A stretch of 64,000 bases of DNA, from positions 1 through 64,000 of the forward strand of contig CABWZI010000002.1 in assembly GCA_902509905.1 (NCBI GenBank), given 5' to 3'. The notes beneath the pieces were generated by a model. That model did not search any database. It had not been told where the DNA came from and saw nothing but the letters and a program-made list of their open reading frames with translations. The position numbers were made by a program, and so were the translations under genes. Positions 16,045-51,514 of the stretch are shown here, in pieces. Within the stretch, counting starts at the first letter, position 1. Each line of letters starts with the position of its first letter. This DNA is from an uncultured Gammaproteobacteria bacterium. Its GTDB lineage: Bacteria > Pseudomonadota > Gammaproteobacteria > PS1 > Pseudothioglobaceae.

Positions 16045-16069
16045 GCAAATGATAGTGATTATCATTTGC
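16045..16069 (+). promoter_or_regulatory. Fur box upstream of the DUF4856 gene
   Basis: Inverted repeat arms GCAAATGATA and TATCATTTGC surround a 5-nt centre (GTGAT). It contains the Fur-type core AATGATA..TATCATT. It lies in the 82-base gap between the ABC ATPase and the DUF4856 gene, so that gene has its own iron-responsive control. Confidence 0.88.
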
Positions 16070-16111: not shown

Positions 16112-17509
16112 ATGTTTAATAAGCGATTGACCGCCAAAGCGGTTCCTCTAACTGTCGTTCTTGGATCGGCAATTTTAATTTCATCATCTGCATTTGCTAG
16201 GTCAAATGTATATGCTGATTTTCCAATTACACTTAAAGATTACTCGGGTAGTTCAACAACGTCTGTTTCTTATAAGGGGCAAATGGCAAGACATGCTCTT
16301 GAGAGTTCACTCAAAAAACTTATTTCAAAAGGTGATATGAGTTCTATGCAGAGTTACTTCTCAGGTGATGATGCAAACAGAGCTATTATTGCTCCTGCCA
16401 CAAAAGGCGATTTTGTCATTAAGCAATCTACTATTGGAGAACTCTCTAATAAAAACTTAAGTGGTAAAACTTACAAAGGTTTAGTTCCTGGATGGGTTGG
16501 AAGTATGACTGGGCCTGAAGTCGTTGCATTTATGTTTGAAAAAGCTGCAGAATCTGAGGGTGGCTATGATCCTTCGCACGCTATGGATTATACTCAACTA
16601 GTTTCTAAGTTCTTGATGGGAGCTGTGACTTATAATCAAGCGGTAGATAATTATCTTGATGAAAAACTTGAAGCTGACAATAAACCAAACAACAAGCCTT
16701 ATAAGGATGGTGCAGCATACACTGGTAAAGAACATGTTTGGGATGAAGCGTTTGGTTACTTTGGAGCTCCTGCGCACACATTAACTCTTACTGCTCAAAA
16801 TGTCTATGATATTGCAAAGCAGAAAGATGCAGCTGTAGCTGACTACAACTATGATGGCAAGGTAGATCTTTATAACGAAATGGCTTTTGGACATGCTTAC
16901 TATGCATCTTCATTTGACAAGGGTGGAAAAACAACTTACCTCCATGATATTGTTGGAGCGTACATGGATGGAAGAGACCTGATAACTTCAGTTAATGGAC
17001 GTGCTTTGAGTGACTCCGAGCGCGATGAGTTAAAAGGCTATGCACAAACAATTAAAACCAACTGGGAAAAAGTTATCGCTGAGGCCGTATTTAAGTATGC
17101 AGGCTCAACATACAAAGACATGATGAAAATTGAAGCGATTCTAGAATCTGGTGGCGACGTATCTAAAGAATGGCGAAACTATTCTAAACATTGGGGCGAG
17201 CTAAAAGGTTTTGCTTTAGCTCTTCAGGTTGGTGGAAAAGACATGGGTGCAACCTCAGTTAAGCTAAATCGTTTGATTGGTTATAGTCCTCTTCTTTTAG
17301 GTAACACACAAGTTACTGGAATAGACTCAAACGGTGAGTATATTCAGAGCGATTCAGAGACATGGGGCGGGTATATGGTCCATATGCTGAAAGTACAAAA
17401 CCTCATGGTTGATGAATTTGGAGTGGTTGCCAGGTCAAATGATCAAACTGCAGGTTTGTCTGATTTAGTTAACTCTCTGGGGGCAAAATCTAGCGCGGAG
17501 AATGACTGA
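16112..17509 (+). CDS. DUF4856 family secreted protein, Fur-controlled
   Basis: This 465-residue protein has an N-terminal signal peptide (positively charged MFNKRLTAK, hydrophobic core, cleavage probably after SSSAFA), so it acts in the periplasm or at the outer surface. The mature part matches the DUF4856 pattern (YADFPITLKDYSGSSTTSVSY near its start). Residues 244-256 read DYNYDGKVDLYNE, resembling an EF-hand or dockerin calcium loop with acidic positions 1, 3, 5 and 9. A Fur box and an AAGGAAT ribosome-binding site precede it. The location between ferric ABC genes suggests a role in iron binding or delivery, but no function is established. Confidence 0.8.
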   Translation: MFNKRLTAKAVPLTVVLGSAILISSSAFARSNVYADFPITLKDYSGSSTTSVSYKGQMARHALESSLKKLISKGDMSSMQSYFSGDDANRAIIAPATKGDFVIKQSTIGELSNKNLSGKTYKGLVPGWVGSMTGPEVVAFMFEKAAESEGGYDPSHAMDYTQLVSKFLMGAVTYNQAVDNYLDEKLEADNKPNNKPYKDGAAYTGKEHVWDEAFGYFGAPAHTLTLTAQNVYDIAKQKDAAVADYNYDGKVDLYNEMAFGHAYYASSFDKGGKTTYLHDIVGAYMDGRDLITSVNGRALSDSERDELKGYAQTIKTNWEKVIAEAVFKYAGSTYKDMMKIEAILESGGDVSKEWRNYSKHWGELKGFALALQVGGKDMGATSVKLNRLIGYSPLLLGNTQVTGIDSNGEYIQSDSETWGGYMVHMLKVQNLMVDEFGVVARSNDQTAGLSDLVNSLGAKSSAEND

Positions 17510-18383
17510 TTTTTTTGCTAACTTTATTAATCCAGAGAAGCGCTTATTTATAGGGTATTTAATAAGCGCTGCTTTCATAGCAGTAATGTGGCTCAGAGTA
17601 ATTAATAAAAAACCACTGACAGAAATTGTCAGTGGTTTTTTTAGTACTCAGGTCTGGCTATCAAAGTCTGCACTAGCTGACTATAAACTAATGGTCATTA
17701 ACCAGTTTTTTATAAAAATACTAGCGCCAATTCTAATTGGTCAACTGGCGCTTACAGTATTTATTTTTGAGAATATGCATTTCATATTTTCTAGACCCTC
17801 ATCATCTATACCGGTTTGGATGGTAATGATAATATTCACCTCTGTTCTTTTTATTCTTGATGATTTCTCAAGGTATTTTTTGCACCGTTTAATGCACCGG
17901 GTTCCAATATTATGGCGGTTTCATAAGGCTCATCATTCTGCTACTAATCTAACTCCATTGACTGTTCTTAGGACTCATCCAATTGAGGCGATTCTCTTTA
18001 GTCTTAGAGCGGTCATTGTTCACTCATTATGCCTTGGCGTTTGTTTCTTTTTCTTTGCAGAAAGCGTGTCACTTATTGAAATTTTTGGTTCAAGTGTCTT
18101 TGTTGTAATATTTCATTCATTAGGATCAAATTTAAGGCATTCACATGTCAATCTTAGTTATTGGAGTTGGCTAGAAAAGATTCTTGTTTCTCCCGCGCAG
18201 CATCAATTGCATCATTCAATCAATCCAAAACATTACGACTGTAACTTTGGCGCGGTTCTTGCAGTATGGGATAATATTGGTGGTAGTTGTATAGTGTCAG
18301 AAAAAAATCAAGACATTAAATTTGGACTTAAAGACCAGTCTGAAAATGCGCACAAACTTAAAAATTTAATTATTGGGTCTTAA
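17502..18383 (+). CDS. Sterol desaturase / fatty acid hydroxylase superfamily membrane protein
   Basis: This 293-residue inner-membrane protein belongs to the di-iron hydroxylase superfamily. Histidine clusters are HRLMHR, HKAHHS, HSH and HQLHH, in the family order. There are four or five hydrophobic segments. Known members hydroxylate or desaturate lipids and sterols; the substrate here is unknown. The ATG overlaps the DUF4856 stop by eight bases. Two hairpins, the second a perfect intrinsic terminator, lie inside the first 140 nt of this gene, so its expression is likely attenuated. Its place in a Fur island could reflect its own iron need. Confidence 0.83.
   Translation: MTDFFANFINPEKRLFIGYLISAAFIAVMWLRVINKKPLTEIVSGFFSTQVWLSKSALADYKLMVINQFFIKILAPILIGQLALTVFIFENMHFIFSRPSSSIPVWMVMIIFTSVLFILDDFSRYFLHRLMHRVPILWRFHKAHHSATNLTPLTVLRTHPIEAILFSLRAVIVHSLCLGVCFFFFAESVSLIEIFGSSVFVVIFHSLGSNLRHSHVNLSYWSWLEKILVSPAQHQLHHSINPKHYDCNFGAVLAVWDNIGGSCIVSEKNQDIKFGLKDQSENAHKLKNLIIGS
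17539..17570 (+). other. First hairpin within the start of the hydroxylase gene
   Basis: A perfect 10-bp inverted repeat, AGCGCTTATT and AATAAGCGCT, has a 12-nt loop and is centred about 50 nt into the coding region. No T tract follows, so it is not itself a terminator. It precedes the intragenic terminator by 40 bases. Confidence 0.7.
17611..17642 (+). terminator. Intragenic rho-independent terminator
   Basis: A perfect 11-bp stem, AACCACTGACA and TGTCAGTGGTT, has a 5-nt loop and is followed by a run of seven T. It lies about 110 nt inside the hydroxylase-like gene, in codons that stay open. It probably ends most transcripts of the Fur-controlled DUF4856 gene and limits read-through. Confidence 0.88.
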
Positions 18384-18438: not shown

Positions 18439-19458
18439 GTGAACAAAAAAGTATCAATCTTTTCGATAATAGTAATATCAATTTTATCAACATCTTTTTC
18501 TGCAGCAGTGCAAGCGGCAAGTAATGATAGTCTGACAGTGTATAGCACAAGGAAAGAACACTTAATTAAGCCTCTATTTGATGCATTTACTGCGAAAACT
18601 GGAATAAAAGTAAAGTATCTTACTGGAAAGGGGGGTGCGTTAATAGAGCGCATTAAATTGGAGGGCAAAAAAACCAAGGCTGATTTATTTATGACAGTTG
18701 ATGCTGGAAATCTTTGGTATGCCGCATCTCAAAATTTATTTCAACCAGTAAGTAGTGAAATCATTGAAAATAATATTCCTGAGCATCTTCGAGATCCTGA
18801 AGGTCTTTGGAGTGGCTTATCGGTTAGAGCAAGGACAATAATCTATAGCACTGAAAGAGTTAATCCAAGTGAGTTATCATCTTATCAAGATTTGGCAAAT
18901 AAAAAATGGAAAGGCAAACTTTGTTTGAGAACAAGTAAGAAAGTATATACAAAGTCTCTTGTATCCTCACTAATCCATCATGATGGAATGGAAAAAACAA
19001 CTGATGTAGTGAGGGGCTGGGTTGATAACCTTGCTGCCACTCCTCACGCTGAAGATGTTCATATAATGACTTCAATCCTAGCGGGCCAGTGTGATGTGGG
19101 AATTGTAAATAGCTACTATTTTGGAAGGCTGCAAGCAGAGGATCCGAACGCTCCCCTTAAACTCTTTTGGGCTAATCAAAATACTACTGGAACGCATGTT
19201 AATGTTTCAGGAGCTGGAGTCACAAAACATTCAAAGAATCCAGATGACGCAATAAGATTACTTGAGTTTTTATCTTCAATCGAAGCTCAAAAAATCTATG
19301 TTGGCTTAAATAAGGAGTATCCAGCAACTCAAAAAATTAAAGCAGATAATTTGATTGCCTTATGGGGAGATTTTAATCAGGATAAAATGAATCTCTCTTT
19401 TGCTGGAAAAAATCAGGCTGATTCGGTTTCACTCATGCAGAGAGAAGGTTATAAATAA
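18439..19458 (+). CDS. Ferric iron ABC transporter substrate-binding protein
   Basis: This periplasmic Fe3+-binding protein of the FbpA/FutA/IdiA type has about 339 residues. An N-terminal signal peptide (NKKVSIFSIIVISILSTSFS, cleavage near VQAA) is followed by the binding-protein start SLTVYSTRKEHLIKPLFDAF. The C-lobe GIVNSYYFGRL carries the paired tyrosines that coordinate iron in this family. GTG at 18439 is chosen because GGAG ends six bases upstream; another in-frame GTG at 18427 precedes that site. It works with the permease 27 bases downstream and the ATPase at 15379. Confidence 0.93.
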   Translation: MNKKVSIFSIIVISILSTSFSAAVQAASNDSLTVYSTRKEHLIKPLFDAFTAKTGIKVKYLTGKGGALIERIKLEGKKTKADLFMTVDAGNLWYAASQNLFQPVSSEIIENNIPEHLRDPEGLWSGLSVRARTIIYSTERVNPSELSSYQDLANKKWKGKLCLRTSKKVYTKSLVSSLIHHDGMEKTTDVVRGWVDNLAATPHAEDVHIMTSILAGQCDVGIVNSYYFGRLQAEDPNAPLKLFWANQNTTGTHVNVSGAGVTKHSKNPDDAIRLLEFLSSIEAQKIYVGLNKEYPATQKIKADNLIALWGDFNQDKMNLSFAGKNQADSVSLMQREGYK

Positions 19459-19485: not shown

Positions 19486-21084
19486 ATGAATAGTAAGCAA
19501 AATAATTCAACTTTTTTAATGGGCCTTCTAGCACTATCTGTTTCGTTCCCAATCATTGTTGTCTGTTCAGCTTGGTTTTTTCCAGGAACTGAGCTATGGG
19601 GGCATTTTCTTGAAAACTTATTACCTGAACTCATTGTATCAACTTTTATATTGCTTCTAGGTGTTGGATTAGGGGTAAGTATTCTAGGAACCGTTTTGGC
19701 ATATTTAGTTGTCATGGTTGAGTTTCCTGGAAGAAGATGGTTAGAGTGGGCACTATTCTTGCCCTTTGCAATACCCGCTTATGTTCTAGCTTTTGTTTAT
19801 CTTGGGGTTTTTGACTATTCAGGCTACGCCCAGGTCTGGCTTAGGGAATTTACTGGAATATCTGGATTTGATATCAGAGCTGGAAGTTGGGCAATTATAT
19901 TAACATTTGTATTGGTTTTTTATCCTTACGTTTACATGATGGCAAGAGCCTCATTTAAGCGACAAAAGATTCAGATGATTGAGGCTGGAAAAATGCTTGG
20001 TGCAAAACCTTTTCTGGTTTTTTGGAAAATTTCTGTACCTCTCGCAAGACCAGCTATTGCTGCTGGTTTACTTGTTACTCTTATGGAAACATTGGCAGAT
20101 TTTGGAGTAGTCTCACTTTTTAACTACTCAACTTTCACAACAGCAATTTATTCAGCATGGGGAGACTTTCGCTCTATAGAAGTTGCTGCACAACTAGCAT
20201 CAATGCTAGTTTTAATTGCATTCTTTCTTATTTATTTTGAAAAAAAAGCCCGAGGTAAAGCTAAATATTACTCATCAGATGTATCCCATATCAGACCCTA
20301 CAGAGCAGAAGGAGTTTCAGGCTGGGTTACTTTTTTATTCGTTTTTGGTGTATTTATGCTGTCTTTTGCAATGCCTATGCTCCAACTTATTATTTGGAGT
20401 ATCGAAAAATATGGTGAAGAAATTAGTCAGTTCTACCTTAATTATCTTACTTCTACTGGGATTTTGACTGTGAGTGCGACAATCTTAACTGTTGCTGTAG
20501 CTACTATGCTAGCCTTGCCAAGTCGTCGTAAGGACGAAAGTAAAGCATTGCAGCTTCTTATAAGGTTTTCGACATTAGGTTATGCATTACCGGGATCAGT
20601 CATGGCTGTTGGACTTTTGTATGGTGTGCAAAATATTTCATTAGTCAGCATTCATTTTGGGGGTTCATCAATTAATCATATTCTTTTTGGGTCAGTGGCA
20701 TTACTTCTATTTGCATACATTTCTAGATTTATGGCAATTGCCTACAACTCAACAAGCGCCTCCAGTGAGCAGATTAAGCCTGTTTTTGAACAGAGTGCTA
20801 GACTTTTAGGATCATCAAGAATGCGTTTAATCAAGGAAATATACCTTCCAATGATGACGCCTGGAATATTAGCTGGAGGCTTGTTGGTAGCTGTAGATGT
20901 GATGAAGGAGCTACCTGCAACCTACCTATTAAGGCCTTTTGGATGGGATACTCTTGCCATTAGGGTTTTTGAATTGAGCTCAGAAGGACTTTATGATAGG
21001 GCAGCTATTCCTGCTCTAATAATGGTATTTTTAGGAGCGATTATTATGCTGTTATTTATTCGACTGGACAGTGAAAAATATTAA
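19486..21084 (+). CDS. Iron(III) ABC transporter permease, fused two-domain type
   Basis: This inner-membrane permease of the FbpB/SfuB type moves Fe3+ from the periplasmic binding protein into the cytosol. The 532-residue protein has about twelve hydrophobic segments and two permease domains. Each has an EAA loop that docks the ATPase: EAGKMLGAKPFLVFWKISVP in the first half and EQSARLLGSSRMRLIKEIYL in the second. It follows the binding-protein gene by 27 bases and completes the transporter. Confidence 0.94.
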   Translation: MNSKQNNSTFLMGLLALSVSFPIIVVCSAWFFPGTELWGHFLENLLPELIVSTFILLLGVGLGVSILGTVLAYLVVMVEFPGRRWLEWALFLPFAIPAYVLAFVYLGVFDYSGYAQVWLREFTGISGFDIRAGSWAIILTFVLVFYPYVYMMARASFKRQKIQMIEAGKMLGAKPFLVFWKISVPLARPAIAAGLLVTLMETLADFGVVSLFNYSTFTTAIYSAWGDFRSIEVAAQLASMLVLIAFFLIYFEKKARGKAKYYSSDVSHIRPYRAEGVSGWVTFLFVFGVFMLSFAMPMLQLIIWSIEKYGEEISQFYLNYLTSTGILTVSATILTVAVATMLALPSRRKDESKALQLLIRFSTLGYALPGSVMAVGLLYGVQNISLVSIHFGGSSINHILFGSVALLLFAYISRFMAIAYNSTSASSEQIKPVFEQSARLLGSSRMRLIKEIYLPMMTPGILAGGLLVAVDVMKELPATYLLRPFGWDTLAIRVFELSSEGLYDRAAIPALIMVFLGAIIMLLFIRLDSEKY

Positions 21085-23352: not shown

Positions 23353-24774
23353 ATGGCCAAGAAAGGATATGACGCTGGAGTTAAGGAATATAGAGACACA
23401 TACTGGATGCCTGAATACGAGCCAGTCGATACCGATATTCTTGCATGTTTTAAAATAACTCCACAGCCAGGCGTACCTAGAGAAGAAGTGGCCGCTGCAG
23501 TAGCTGCTGAATCCTCAACAGGAACTTGGACAACAGTCTGGACTGATTTGCTAACTGATCTTGATCATTACAAGGGAAGGGCATACAGAATTGAAGATGT
23601 TCCTGGTTCGGACGATGCAATCTATGCATTTATTGCCTACCCAATCGATTTATTCGAGGAAGGTTCAATTGTAAATGTTCTAACTTCTCTTGTTGGTAAT
23701 GTGTTTGGTTTTAAAGCTCTTAGAGCTTTGAGATTAGAGGACATTCGTTTTCCAATAGCATATGTTATGACTTGTGGTGGCCCTCCTAATGGAATTGAGG
23801 TTGAAAGAGACAAGATGAATAAATATGGTCGACCTTTATTGGGCTGCACAATAAAGCCAAAACTGGGTCTATCAGCTAAGAATTATGGAAGAGCTTGCTA
23901 TGAGGGTCTTAGAGGAGGTTTAGACTTTACCAAAGACGATGAAAATGTTAATTCTCAGCCATTTATGCGCTGGAGAGATCGTTTCGGTTTTGTTCAGGAT
24001 GCTATTGAGAGAGCTGAAAAAGAAACTGGAGAGCGTAAAGGACATTATCTAAACGTTACTGCACCTACTCCAGAAGAGATGTATAAGCGTGCGGAGTATG
24101 CAAAGGAGCTAGGCACTCCAATTATTATGCATGATTTCTTTACAGCTGGTTTTACTGCAAATACTGGTCTTGCAAATTGGTGTCGTGATAACGGCTTATT
24201 ACTTCACATTCATAGAGCAATGCATGCAGTTGTTGATAGAAATCCAAACCATGGTATCCACTTCAGAGTTTTAGCAAAATGTTTGCGACTTTCTGGCGGT
24301 GATCACATGCACTCTGGAACTGTTGTAGGAAAGCTTGAGGGTGACCGTGATTCTACACTTGGATGGATCGATTGTATGCGTGATAGTTTTATTAAAGAGG
24401 ATCGTTCGCGTGGAATTTTCTTCGATCAAGATTTTGGCTCAATGCCAGGAATGTTACCGGTCGCATCAGGTGGTATCCATGTTTGGCATATGCCGGCACT
24501 TGTGAATATTTTTGGTGATAACTCTGTTCTTCAGTTTGGAGGCGGAACGCTTGGCCACCCATGGGGCAATGCGGCTGGTGCAGCTGCGAATAGGGTTGCA
24601 GTTGAAGCATGTGTAGAGGCACGAAATGCTGGGCGCGAATTAGAAAAAGAATCAAAGGACATTCTTACGAGTGCTGCGAAACACTCACCAGAACTCAAGG
24701 TAGCAATGGAGACTTGGAAAGAGATTAAATTTGAGTTTGATACGGTAGACAAATTAGATATACAGCATAAATAA
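23353..24774 (+). CDS. cbbL: RuBisCO form IA large subunit
   Basis: The large subunit of ribulose-1,5-bisphosphate carboxylase fixes CO2 in the Calvin cycle. The 473-residue protein has the start [18 protein letters not shown], the TIKPKLGLS strand, the carbamylated Lys in [21 protein letters not shown], and loop 6 [11 protein letters not shown]. The N-terminal pattern ([20 protein letters not shown]) and the paired small subunit show form I, and the cbbQO neighbours point to the non-carboxysomal IAq type. No carboxysome shell genes are present. Confidence 0.98.
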
Positions 24775-25205: not shown

Positions 25206-25236
25206 AAACCCCTGTCTCTAAGCAGGGGTTTTTTTT
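25206..25236 (+). terminator. Intrinsic terminator between cbbS and cbbQ
   Basis: A 9-bp stem, AAACCCCTG and CAGGGGTTT, with an 8-nt loop ends in a run of eight T. cbbQ begins 16 bases later with its own AAAGGA, so read-through probably supplies cbbQO at a lower level than cbbLS. Confidence 0.9.
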
Positions 25237-25251
25237 CTAAAGGAATAAAAA

Positions 25252-26055
25252 ATGAATGAATTAAATCAATACAAAATTGCTGAAGAGCCTTTCTATCAGC
25301 CACAAGAAGATGAAATTGATATGTACACGGCAGCTTACATGAATCGCATGCCAGTAATGTTAAAAGGACCCACAGGTTGTGGAAAATCTCGTTTTGTTGA
25401 GTACATGGCCTACAAGTTAGATAAGCCATTAATTACTGTTGCTTGTAATGAGGATATGTCCGCAAGTGACCTAGTAGGTCGATTCTTGCTCGATAAGGAT
25501 GGAACAATTTGGCAAGATGGACCTTTAGCTATGGCAGCTCGATATGGTGGCATATGTTATTTAGACGAAGTGGTTGAGGCTAGGCAAGATACTACAGTTG
25601 TAATTCACCCTTTGACAGATTATCGAAGAACCCTTCCTCTTGATAAAAAAGGTGAGTTAATTGACGCCCATCCAGATTTTCAGCTCGTCATTTCATACAA
25701 TCCAGGTTATCAAAATTTGATGAAGGATCTTAAACAGTCAACCAAACAGAGATTTTGTGGATTTAATTTCCAGTATCCTGATGAGAAAACCGAAGCACAC
25801 ATTATCACTAGAGAGTCAGGCGTTGATGAAGAAACAGCATTAAAGTTAGTTCAGATAGCTCAACGGGCTAGAAACCTTGTGGGTCATGGTCTTGATGAGG
25901 GTATTTCAACTAGACTATGCGTATATGCTGGACAGCTTATTGCAGATAAAGTAAGTGAAAAATCAGCCTGTAAGATTGCCATGGTGAATCCAATCACTGA
26001 TGATTTGGATATTGTTGATACTTTAAATGCTGCAATAGATACATTCTTTGAGTAA
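25252..26055 (+). CDS. cbbQ: RuBisCO activase subunit CbbQ
   Basis: This MoxR-family AAA+ ATPase (267 residues) forms hexamers that, with CbbO, remove inhibitory sugar phosphates from RuBisCO. Walker A is GPTGCGKS near residue 40, Walker B is GICYLDEVVEA, and sensor regions follow (SYNPGYQNL, a MoxR hallmark). It lies directly behind cbbS and nine bases before cbbO. Confidence 0.95.
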   Translation: MNELNQYKIAEEPFYQPQEDEIDMYTAAYMNRMPVMLKGPTGCGKSRFVEYMAYKLDKPLITVACNEDMSASDLVGRFLLDKDGTIWQDGPLAMAARYGGICYLDEVVEARQDTTVVIHPLTDYRRTLPLDKKGELIDAHPDFQLVISYNPGYQNLMKDLKQSTKQRFCGFNFQYPDEKTEAHIITRESGVDEETALKLVQIAQRARNLVGHGLDEGISTRLCVYAGQLIADKVSEKSACKIAMVNPITDDLDIVDTLNAAIDTFFE

Positions 26056-50876: not shown

Positions 50877-50896
50877 AATGGGTAACCTGAAAGGAA

Positions 50897-51514
50897 TTAA
50901 TTCAGATCGTCAAGTTTGATCTGAATTAATTGAGATAAGCTTGAATTATCAGTAATGTTTTCAATTGCGAGAGCGTAACTATTTCTTGCCTCTTCATTGT
51001 TGCCGAGATCTAAATACACATCACCAGCAAGGTTATAAAATAAACCTGAAAACTCGTTAGCATTATCCATATTCAGAACAGCTAGAGCCTCTTGATGCTG
51101 TCCAAGCTCTAAATAGAGCGAGGCTGAACGAAGGGCTGCAGTAGATGCAATGACAGAATTCTCTCGACTCATTAAAGGCTTTAAAGCGTCCAACGCTAAA
51201 GAGTAGTTTTCAGCTTCAAACAAGTATTTAGCCATTAACAGTGTTGCTTGGTCTGAATATGAGCTGGAAGGGTGATCTTTGATTAATTTGTCATAAGCAC
51301 CCACATTGGCTGAATCTGAAGCATAGCTTAAATATAATGCTCTAGCATTCAAGGCTTGACTATCTTGATAATCTACATAATAATTCCAACCGAATATCCC
51401 TGCAAGACCAAGAACTGCTCCAGCAATTATTTGCTTGCCGTTGGAATCCCACCACTTTTTTAATTTGTCAACTTGCTCTTCTTCCGAATCGCTAATTTCT
51501 ATAAAGTTTTTCAT
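50897..51514 (-). CDS. yfgM: YfgM-like membrane-anchored TPR protein
   Basis: This 205-residue protein has one N-terminal membrane helix (IIAGAVLGLAGIFGWNYYV, about 30-50), with a cytosolic acidic start (EISDSEEEQVDKLKKWW) and a periplasmic region of TPR-like helical repeats. YfgM associates with PpiD and the SecYEG translocon as a chaperone-like factor in E. coli. It lies between hisS and der, the same order as in E. coli. Confidence 0.9.
   Translation of the reverse strand: MKNFIEISDSEEEQVDKLKKWWDSNGKQIIAGAVLGLAGIFGWNYYVDYQDSQALNARALYLSYASDSANVGAYDKLIKDHPSSSYSDQATLLMAKYLFEAENYSLALDALKPLMSRENSVIASTAALRSASLYLELGQHQEALAVLNMDNANEFSGLFYNLAGDVYLDLGNNEEARNSYALAIENITDNSSLSQLIQIKLDDLN

Follow-up and report, generated by a model that had tools for sequence, protein, structure and literature searches.

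An intrinsic-terminator-like hairpin conserved within the codons of a hydroxylase gene in a Fur-box-like operon of Candidatus Thioglobus

Introduction

Intrinsic terminators are normally not expected in protein-coding sequence. In a genome of Candidatus Thioglobus (SUP05-type; its nearest named relatives bear the same name), a hairpin that resembles an intrinsic terminator is located in the early codons of an enzyme gene, in an operon that is preceded by a Fur-box-like site. This raises the question of what such an element does there. We have addressed it for the 64,000-nucleotide stretch of DNA analyzed, referred to as the window, and for related loci in other genomes. A sequence-only reading had proposed a built-in attenuator.

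Results

Gene order and operon context

The gene order in the window is an fbpC-like ATPase, the Fur-box-like palindrome, DUF4856, the hydroxylase, an fbpA-like and an fbpB-like gene. The relevant features are as follows.

16045 to 16069, plus strand: Fur-box-like site GCAAATGATAGTGATTATCATTTGC, a perfect 10-bp palindrome upstream of DUF4856
16112 to 17509, plus strand: DUF4856 gene, 465 amino acids (PF16148, E=1.4e-11), the first gene behind the Fur-box-like site
17502 to 18383, plus strand: gene for a membrane enzyme of the fatty acid hydroxylase family, 293 amino acids (PF04116, E=3.5e-24), which houses hairpins H1 and H2
17539 to 17570, plus strand: H1, a hairpin of 10 bp with a 12-nt loop, arms 17539-17548 and 17561-17570, without a U-tract
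17607 to 17642, plus strand: H2, an intrinsic-terminator-like hairpin with a 5-nt loop, arms 17607-17621 and 17627-17641, T7 tract 17636-17642
17607 to 17641, minus strand: the H2 palindrome scored as a terminator, with no minus-strand gene across it
18442 to 19458, plus strand: gene for an FbpA-like iron-binding protein (family by resemblance), downstream of H2
19486 to 21084, plus strand: gene for an FbpB-like permease (family by resemblance), downstream of H2

The palindrome at 16045-16069 is termed Fur-box-like for its resemblance to the known consensus, and a matching palindrome is present upstream in 10 of 10 Thioglobus operons. The FbpA-like gene is collinear in Thioglobus and at most SAR116 loci, and the FbpB-like gene is so in the Thioglobus relatives. 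Neither a conserved promoter nor a conserved Fur box was found in the spacer before the fbpA-like gene, in a comparison of Thioglobus relatives that covered this spacer. DUF4856 and a full-length, close hydroxylase orthologue occur in exactly the same 10 of the 83 family genomes.

DUF4856 and the hydroxylase gene share 8 nt, in agreement with the eight-base overlap noted earlier, and the hydroxylase start is a tight GGAG-A-ATG in which the Shine-Dalgarno sequence nearly abuts the ATG; both properties suit translational coupling. A consensus fold prediction for positions 17495-17518 placed this Shine-Dalgarno sequence, GCGGAGAA, in a potential helix with the U-run UUUUUUUGC across the start codon, one pair being broken in 2 of the 10 sequences. 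Such pairing would favour the hydroxylase start only after translation of DUF4856.

The AlphaFold model of DUF4856 was too poor to reveal its fold (mean pLDDT 42), our search retrieved no related solved structure, and no paper that mentions DUF4856 was found in the literature search. The DUF4856-hydroxylase cassette, mostly with fbpA next, recurs in distant alpha- and gammaproteobacteria (loci L083, L085-L088, and L065-L082), and the C terminus of DUF4856 (SAEND or similar) is strikingly conserved among these recurring cassettes.

Anatomy of the hairpins and chance expectation

The arms of H1, AGCGCTTATT (17539-17548) and AATAAGCGCT (17561-17570), are fully complementary and lie within hydroxylase codons 13-23, in accordance with the 10-bp hairpin that had been claimed at 17539-17570. 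The arms of H2, AAAAAACCACTGACA (17607-17621) and TGTCAGTGGTTTTTT (17627-17641), also pair perfectly and occupy codons 36-47. H2 had been described as an 11-bp stem plus T7 at 17611-17642, which is fair; its stem reaches 15 perfect bp when the pairs between the A-tract and the U-tract are counted. The terminator core comprises 10 bp (17612-17621/17627-17636) with a stability of -15.0 kcal/mol. H2 thus has the G+C-containing stem of about 7 to 10 bp and the small loop of an intrinsic terminator, and T6-T7 follows directly 3' of the stem in 10 of 10 orthologues. The hairpin is near-symmetric and has an equal terminator score on the minus strand.

No other perfect stem in the 64-kb window is as long as that of H2. 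In dinucleotide shuffles, about 0.5 perfect stems of at least 10 bp (with three or more G/C) arose per 64 kb, whereas a 15-bp stem never did, and the 161-nt hairpin region had a folding z of -3.8. A strict scan for a stable stem with a T-tail returned five sites, of which four are intergenic and only H2 is inside an open reading frame (ORF), the frequency of ORF-internal terminators being judged on the 64-kb window. H2 belongs to the strongest class of U-tailed hairpins in the window. The best Rfam match over the site was RF04312, with 28.2 bits compared to a cut-off of 59, and no family exceeded its gathering score. The possibility that H2 is a dispersed repeat was rejected, as the only match found was its own palindrome. 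Elsewhere in the window, positions 50895-50931 contain a perfect 14-bp palindrome, AATTAATTCAGATC...GATCTGAATTAATT, which is without a T-tail and well above the shuffle expectation.

The hairpin region is translated

If the annotated start were wrong and translation began downstream, the hairpins would be in an untranslated leader and H2 would be an ordinary terminator. This is extremely unlikely. Hydroxylase homologues of 40-46% identity from SAR116 and other Pseudomonadota, members of other orders among them, can be aligned from residues 1-8 onward and across the hairpins, and all ten Thioglobus genes keep the same length and frame without indels; none of our results speaks for a later start. 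Based on this N-terminal alignment and constant frame, the hairpins are not in a misannotated leader, and the intact reading frame reported earlier is real.

Selection on the pairing in Thioglobus

The sequence-only reading had suggested a comparison of related genomes for conserved pairing at synonymous sites, and such conservation was indeed observed. We compared ten Thioglobus orthologues with 75-86% DNA identity and 76-91% protein identity. H1 is fully paired in 10 of 10, with a single variable site at which G-C becomes G-U, and 6 of its 7 degenerate third positions are invariant (P=2e-4). H2 is equally kept in all ten, its sole defect being an innermost A.A mismatch in L004. When only codons with an invariant amino acid were counted, 12 of 15 degenerate third positions in the stems were invariant, compared to 27 of 167 elsewhere in the gene (Fisher P=6e-7). 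The excess holds within the first 80 codons alone (12/15 versus 5/33, P=3e-5), and the conservation of stem sites is therefore not merely that of a conserved gene start. Of all 12-codon windows of the gene, the one that starts at codon 35 had the least synonymous divergence (0.118, compared to a mean of 0.355). Codon choice maintains the T6-T7 tract in all ten genes, with an invariant third position of F46. The single-stranded stretch between the two hairpins is variable.

Over H1 and H2 combined, 99.6% of the cells are paired, compared to 37-61% in slid-partner controls. Double changes were observed at three pairs (four cells), all in H2, against a shuffle mean of 0.7, a significance that is overstated given that the orthologues are mutually related. 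L010 changed G-C to U-A and A-U to G-C, and L012 changed G-C to A-U and A-U to G-C. These two are sister lineages on long branches, and since the same G-C pair ends as U-A in one and as A-U in the other, each has re-made the pair. In places, amino acid changes accompany the compensation, with T at residue 40 replaced by V or M and V at residue 43 by A. H1 contains only one variable pair, so that its support comes from synonymous conservation and not from covariation.

The peptide encoded by H2, KKPLTxIVSGFF, is palindrome-prone in AT-rich codons; codon sampling expects 11 of 15 pairs (P about 0.007 per sequence), and the conservation tests are for this reason stronger evidence than the palindrome itself. 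This property would fit palindromes that the protein sequence imposes by chance, and H1 resembles a dimer site as might be expected of a DNA operator. We consider both notions most improbable: synonymous conservation and covariation oppose the first, and, concerning the second, the H1 motif is present as a single copy in the genome, which led us to reject a regulon operator, and its variable site changes to G-U, not symmetrically. These data indicate that the pairing of H1 and H2 is maintained by selection as RNA, and the initial hairpin observation is confirmed in a stronger form than the sequence alone could provide.

DUF4856-hydroxylase junctions outside Thioglobus

We analyzed 21 junctions outside Thioglobus, 16 from SAR116 and five from other alpha- and gammaproteobacterial groups. 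In all 21, the hydroxylase begins after the DUF4856 stop and the spacer contains a stable hairpin. Textbook terminators with classic U-tracts are found in L083 (junction fold of -30 kcal/mol, T8), L086 (GGGGCGGCGCCAATCGCCGCCCC-TTTTT), L072 (GCTGACCAGCCTATAAGCTGGTCAGC-TTTTT), and L077. Most SAR116 spacer hairpins have weak U-tracts, and that of L073 (SAR116) has an internal mismatch. The stem sequences differ among groups, whereas position and structure persist; the terminator-like element is about 100 nt past the DUF4856 stop in Thioglobus and 5-35 nt past it in the relatives. A comparable hairpin is absent from 13 of 13 family hydroxylase homologues without DUF4856.

The parsimonious reading is that the spacer terminator is ancestral and that Thioglobus lost the spacer and kept the terminator function inside the next gene. 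We considered whether SAR116 might preserve an in-frame hairpin in these codons as an ancestral state and rejected the idea, as AT-rich or PKK/FLG-codon hairpins occur in some of these genes and are not conserved. The spacer of L088 contains two strong tandem hairpins that recall the Thioglobus pair. Among distant hydroxylase relatives, L026, L027, and L028, from several single-contig genomes of genus g5, have in-frame stops and look like decaying pseudogenes.

Discussion

A probable internal partial terminator

H2 is likely to act as a partial intrinsic terminator within the Fur-box operon DUF4856-hydroxylase-fbpA-fbpB and thereby to set DUF4856 above the rest. Polymerase from the Fur-box promoter would transcribe DUF4856 first, and most complexes would be released at the T-run 17636-17642, leaving a monocistronic DUF4856 mRNA with H1 and H2 at its end. 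A minority would read through into the hydroxylase, fbpA, and fbpB, and the net effect would be high DUF4856 and low enzyme and transporter levels. Read-through must occur because a full-length hydroxylase mRNA has to cross H2, and the dependence of the hydroxylase on it is certain because its start is upstream of H2. The sequence comparisons show the structure, its evolutionary maintenance, its conserved operon position, and its restriction to DUF4856-bearing genomes; from these we infer that termination takes place in the cell, how efficient it is, and which expression ratio results. The arrangement suggests that the cell contains far more DUF4856 protein than other operon products, and the DUF4856 product is probably needed in excess.

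Such a role in stoichiometry is consistent with the gene organization, since the genes concerned are co-directional neighbours that are collinear in the ten Thioglobus genomes and at 21 of 21 other junctions, mostly with fbpA next. Several observations count against this reading, including the near-symmetry of H2, with its equal score on the minus strand, and the palindrome-prone peptide that it encodes. What the relatives have in common is a hairpin rather than a complete terminator, given the poor U-tracts of most SAR116 copies, in which protection or processing of the 3' end is a conceivable role. Furthermore, H1 is conserved like H2, although it is dispensable for plain termination; it may pause polymerase, stabilize the 3' end, or slow ribosomes.

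Differential mRNA decay within operons is common. This would fit a model in which RNase processing yields a stable DUF4856 mRNA whose 3' end the hairpins protect or create without stopping polymerase, as would the lack of a good U-tract in most SAR116 hairpins and in H1. We regard this explanation as unlikely, given the T-tract that all ten Thioglobus genes hold through codon choice and the classic U-tracts of L083, L086, L072, and L077. Another explanation is that the DUF4856 3' end, carrying H1 and H2, is set free and serves as a small regulatory RNA under Fur control. E. coli has small RNAs that carry terminators and derive from ORF interiors or from 3' ends (PMC7815308), and both hairpins are conserved; on the other hand, the single-stranded stretch between them is variable and no match to Hfq was found in the genome, which is about 90% complete, so that Hfq is either truly absent or encoded in the missing tenth. 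A small RNA is thus very unlikely, and an Hfq-type one was rejected on the grounds of this search.

The partial terminator that we favour resembles hairpins that follow the genes for substrate-binding proteins in ABC importer operons of Ruminiclostridium, which are internal terminators with efficiencies of 21-96% (PMC9045158). In both cases, the hairpin follows a first, probably abundant gene and precedes less-needed genes, and partial termination is expected to set the ratio. However, those terminators are in intergenic spacers, a position shared by the 21 relatives, whereas H2 of Thioglobus occupies codons of the gene that follows, and the first gene is DUF4856 and not a proven binding protein. 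In Borrelia burgdorferi bmpA-bmpB, which PMC10319736 mentions citing Ramamoorthy 2005, an ORF-internal 3' end in bmpB similarly places termination inside the downstream gene of an operon; the genes, as named there, are unrelated to DUF4856 and the hydroxylase. Premature 3' ends within ORFs, some of them intrinsic, have also been mapped in E. coli (PMC7815308), whereas H2 was deduced from conservation. Internal operon terminators are a known kind; the unusual variant seen here is embedded in codons and maintained by compensatory change, while the relatives have the intergenic form.

Does translation gate the terminator?

The proposal of a built-in attenuator was borne out in part: a selected terminator-like element is present in codons just after DUF4856 in a Fur-box-like operon, but the 5' arm of H2 has no conserved antiterminator partner. 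A ribosome that has completed DUF4856 and reinitiates at 17502 would closely trail polymerase, melt H1, and cover the 5' arm of H2, thereby letting polymerase through; with lagging translation, H2 would form and the operon would be cut off. We consider this a tentative possibility. H2 is within translated codons and hence within reach of the ribosome, the overlap and the Shine-Dalgarno sequence almost at the ATG suit reinitiation, H1 could act as a pause hairpin, and ribosomes suppress intrinsic terminators in coding and leader sequences (PMC5021804; PMC12548453). In pyrBI/pyrL and other ribosome-relieved attenuators, an intrinsic terminator in translated sequence can likewise be prevented by the advancing ribosome, but the translated sequence there is a short leader peptide, whereas here it is a full-length enzyme with no known sensed signal (PMC5021804). 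Apart from the missing antiterminator, no leader-peptide codon bias was noted. Because the hairpin of the relatives is in an untranslated spacer, its original function cannot have been gating by ribosomes, which would be a Thioglobus-only addition, perhaps an unavoidable side effect of embedding. Ribosome-gated relief of H2 is plausible in itself, but the data are accounted for more economically by a plain partial terminator.

A more elaborate scenario, which we find doubtful, is that the terminator moved from the spacer into enzyme codons and became a translation-gated switch, in which the state of translation at the overlap during iron starvation, timed by H1 as a pause hairpin, decides on Fbp transcription. 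If so, the regulatory leader would be a working gene instead of a leader peptide.

A terminator appears to be kept in codons here through purifying selection and compensatory substitutions, while relatives display its intergenic form. This system makes it possible to test dosage control in compact genomes that lose intergenic spacers, as well as the way in which ribosomes and terminators share one sequence, and it points to an uncharacterized Fur-box iron operon, DUF4856-hydroxylase-Fbp.

The window contains another strong terminator-like hairpin, AAACCCCTGTCTCTAAGCAGGGGTTT-TTTTT at 25206-25231, downstream of a RuBisCO-like gene (23353-24774) and 23 nt upstream of a co-directional gene at 25252, which is possibly another internal operon terminator.
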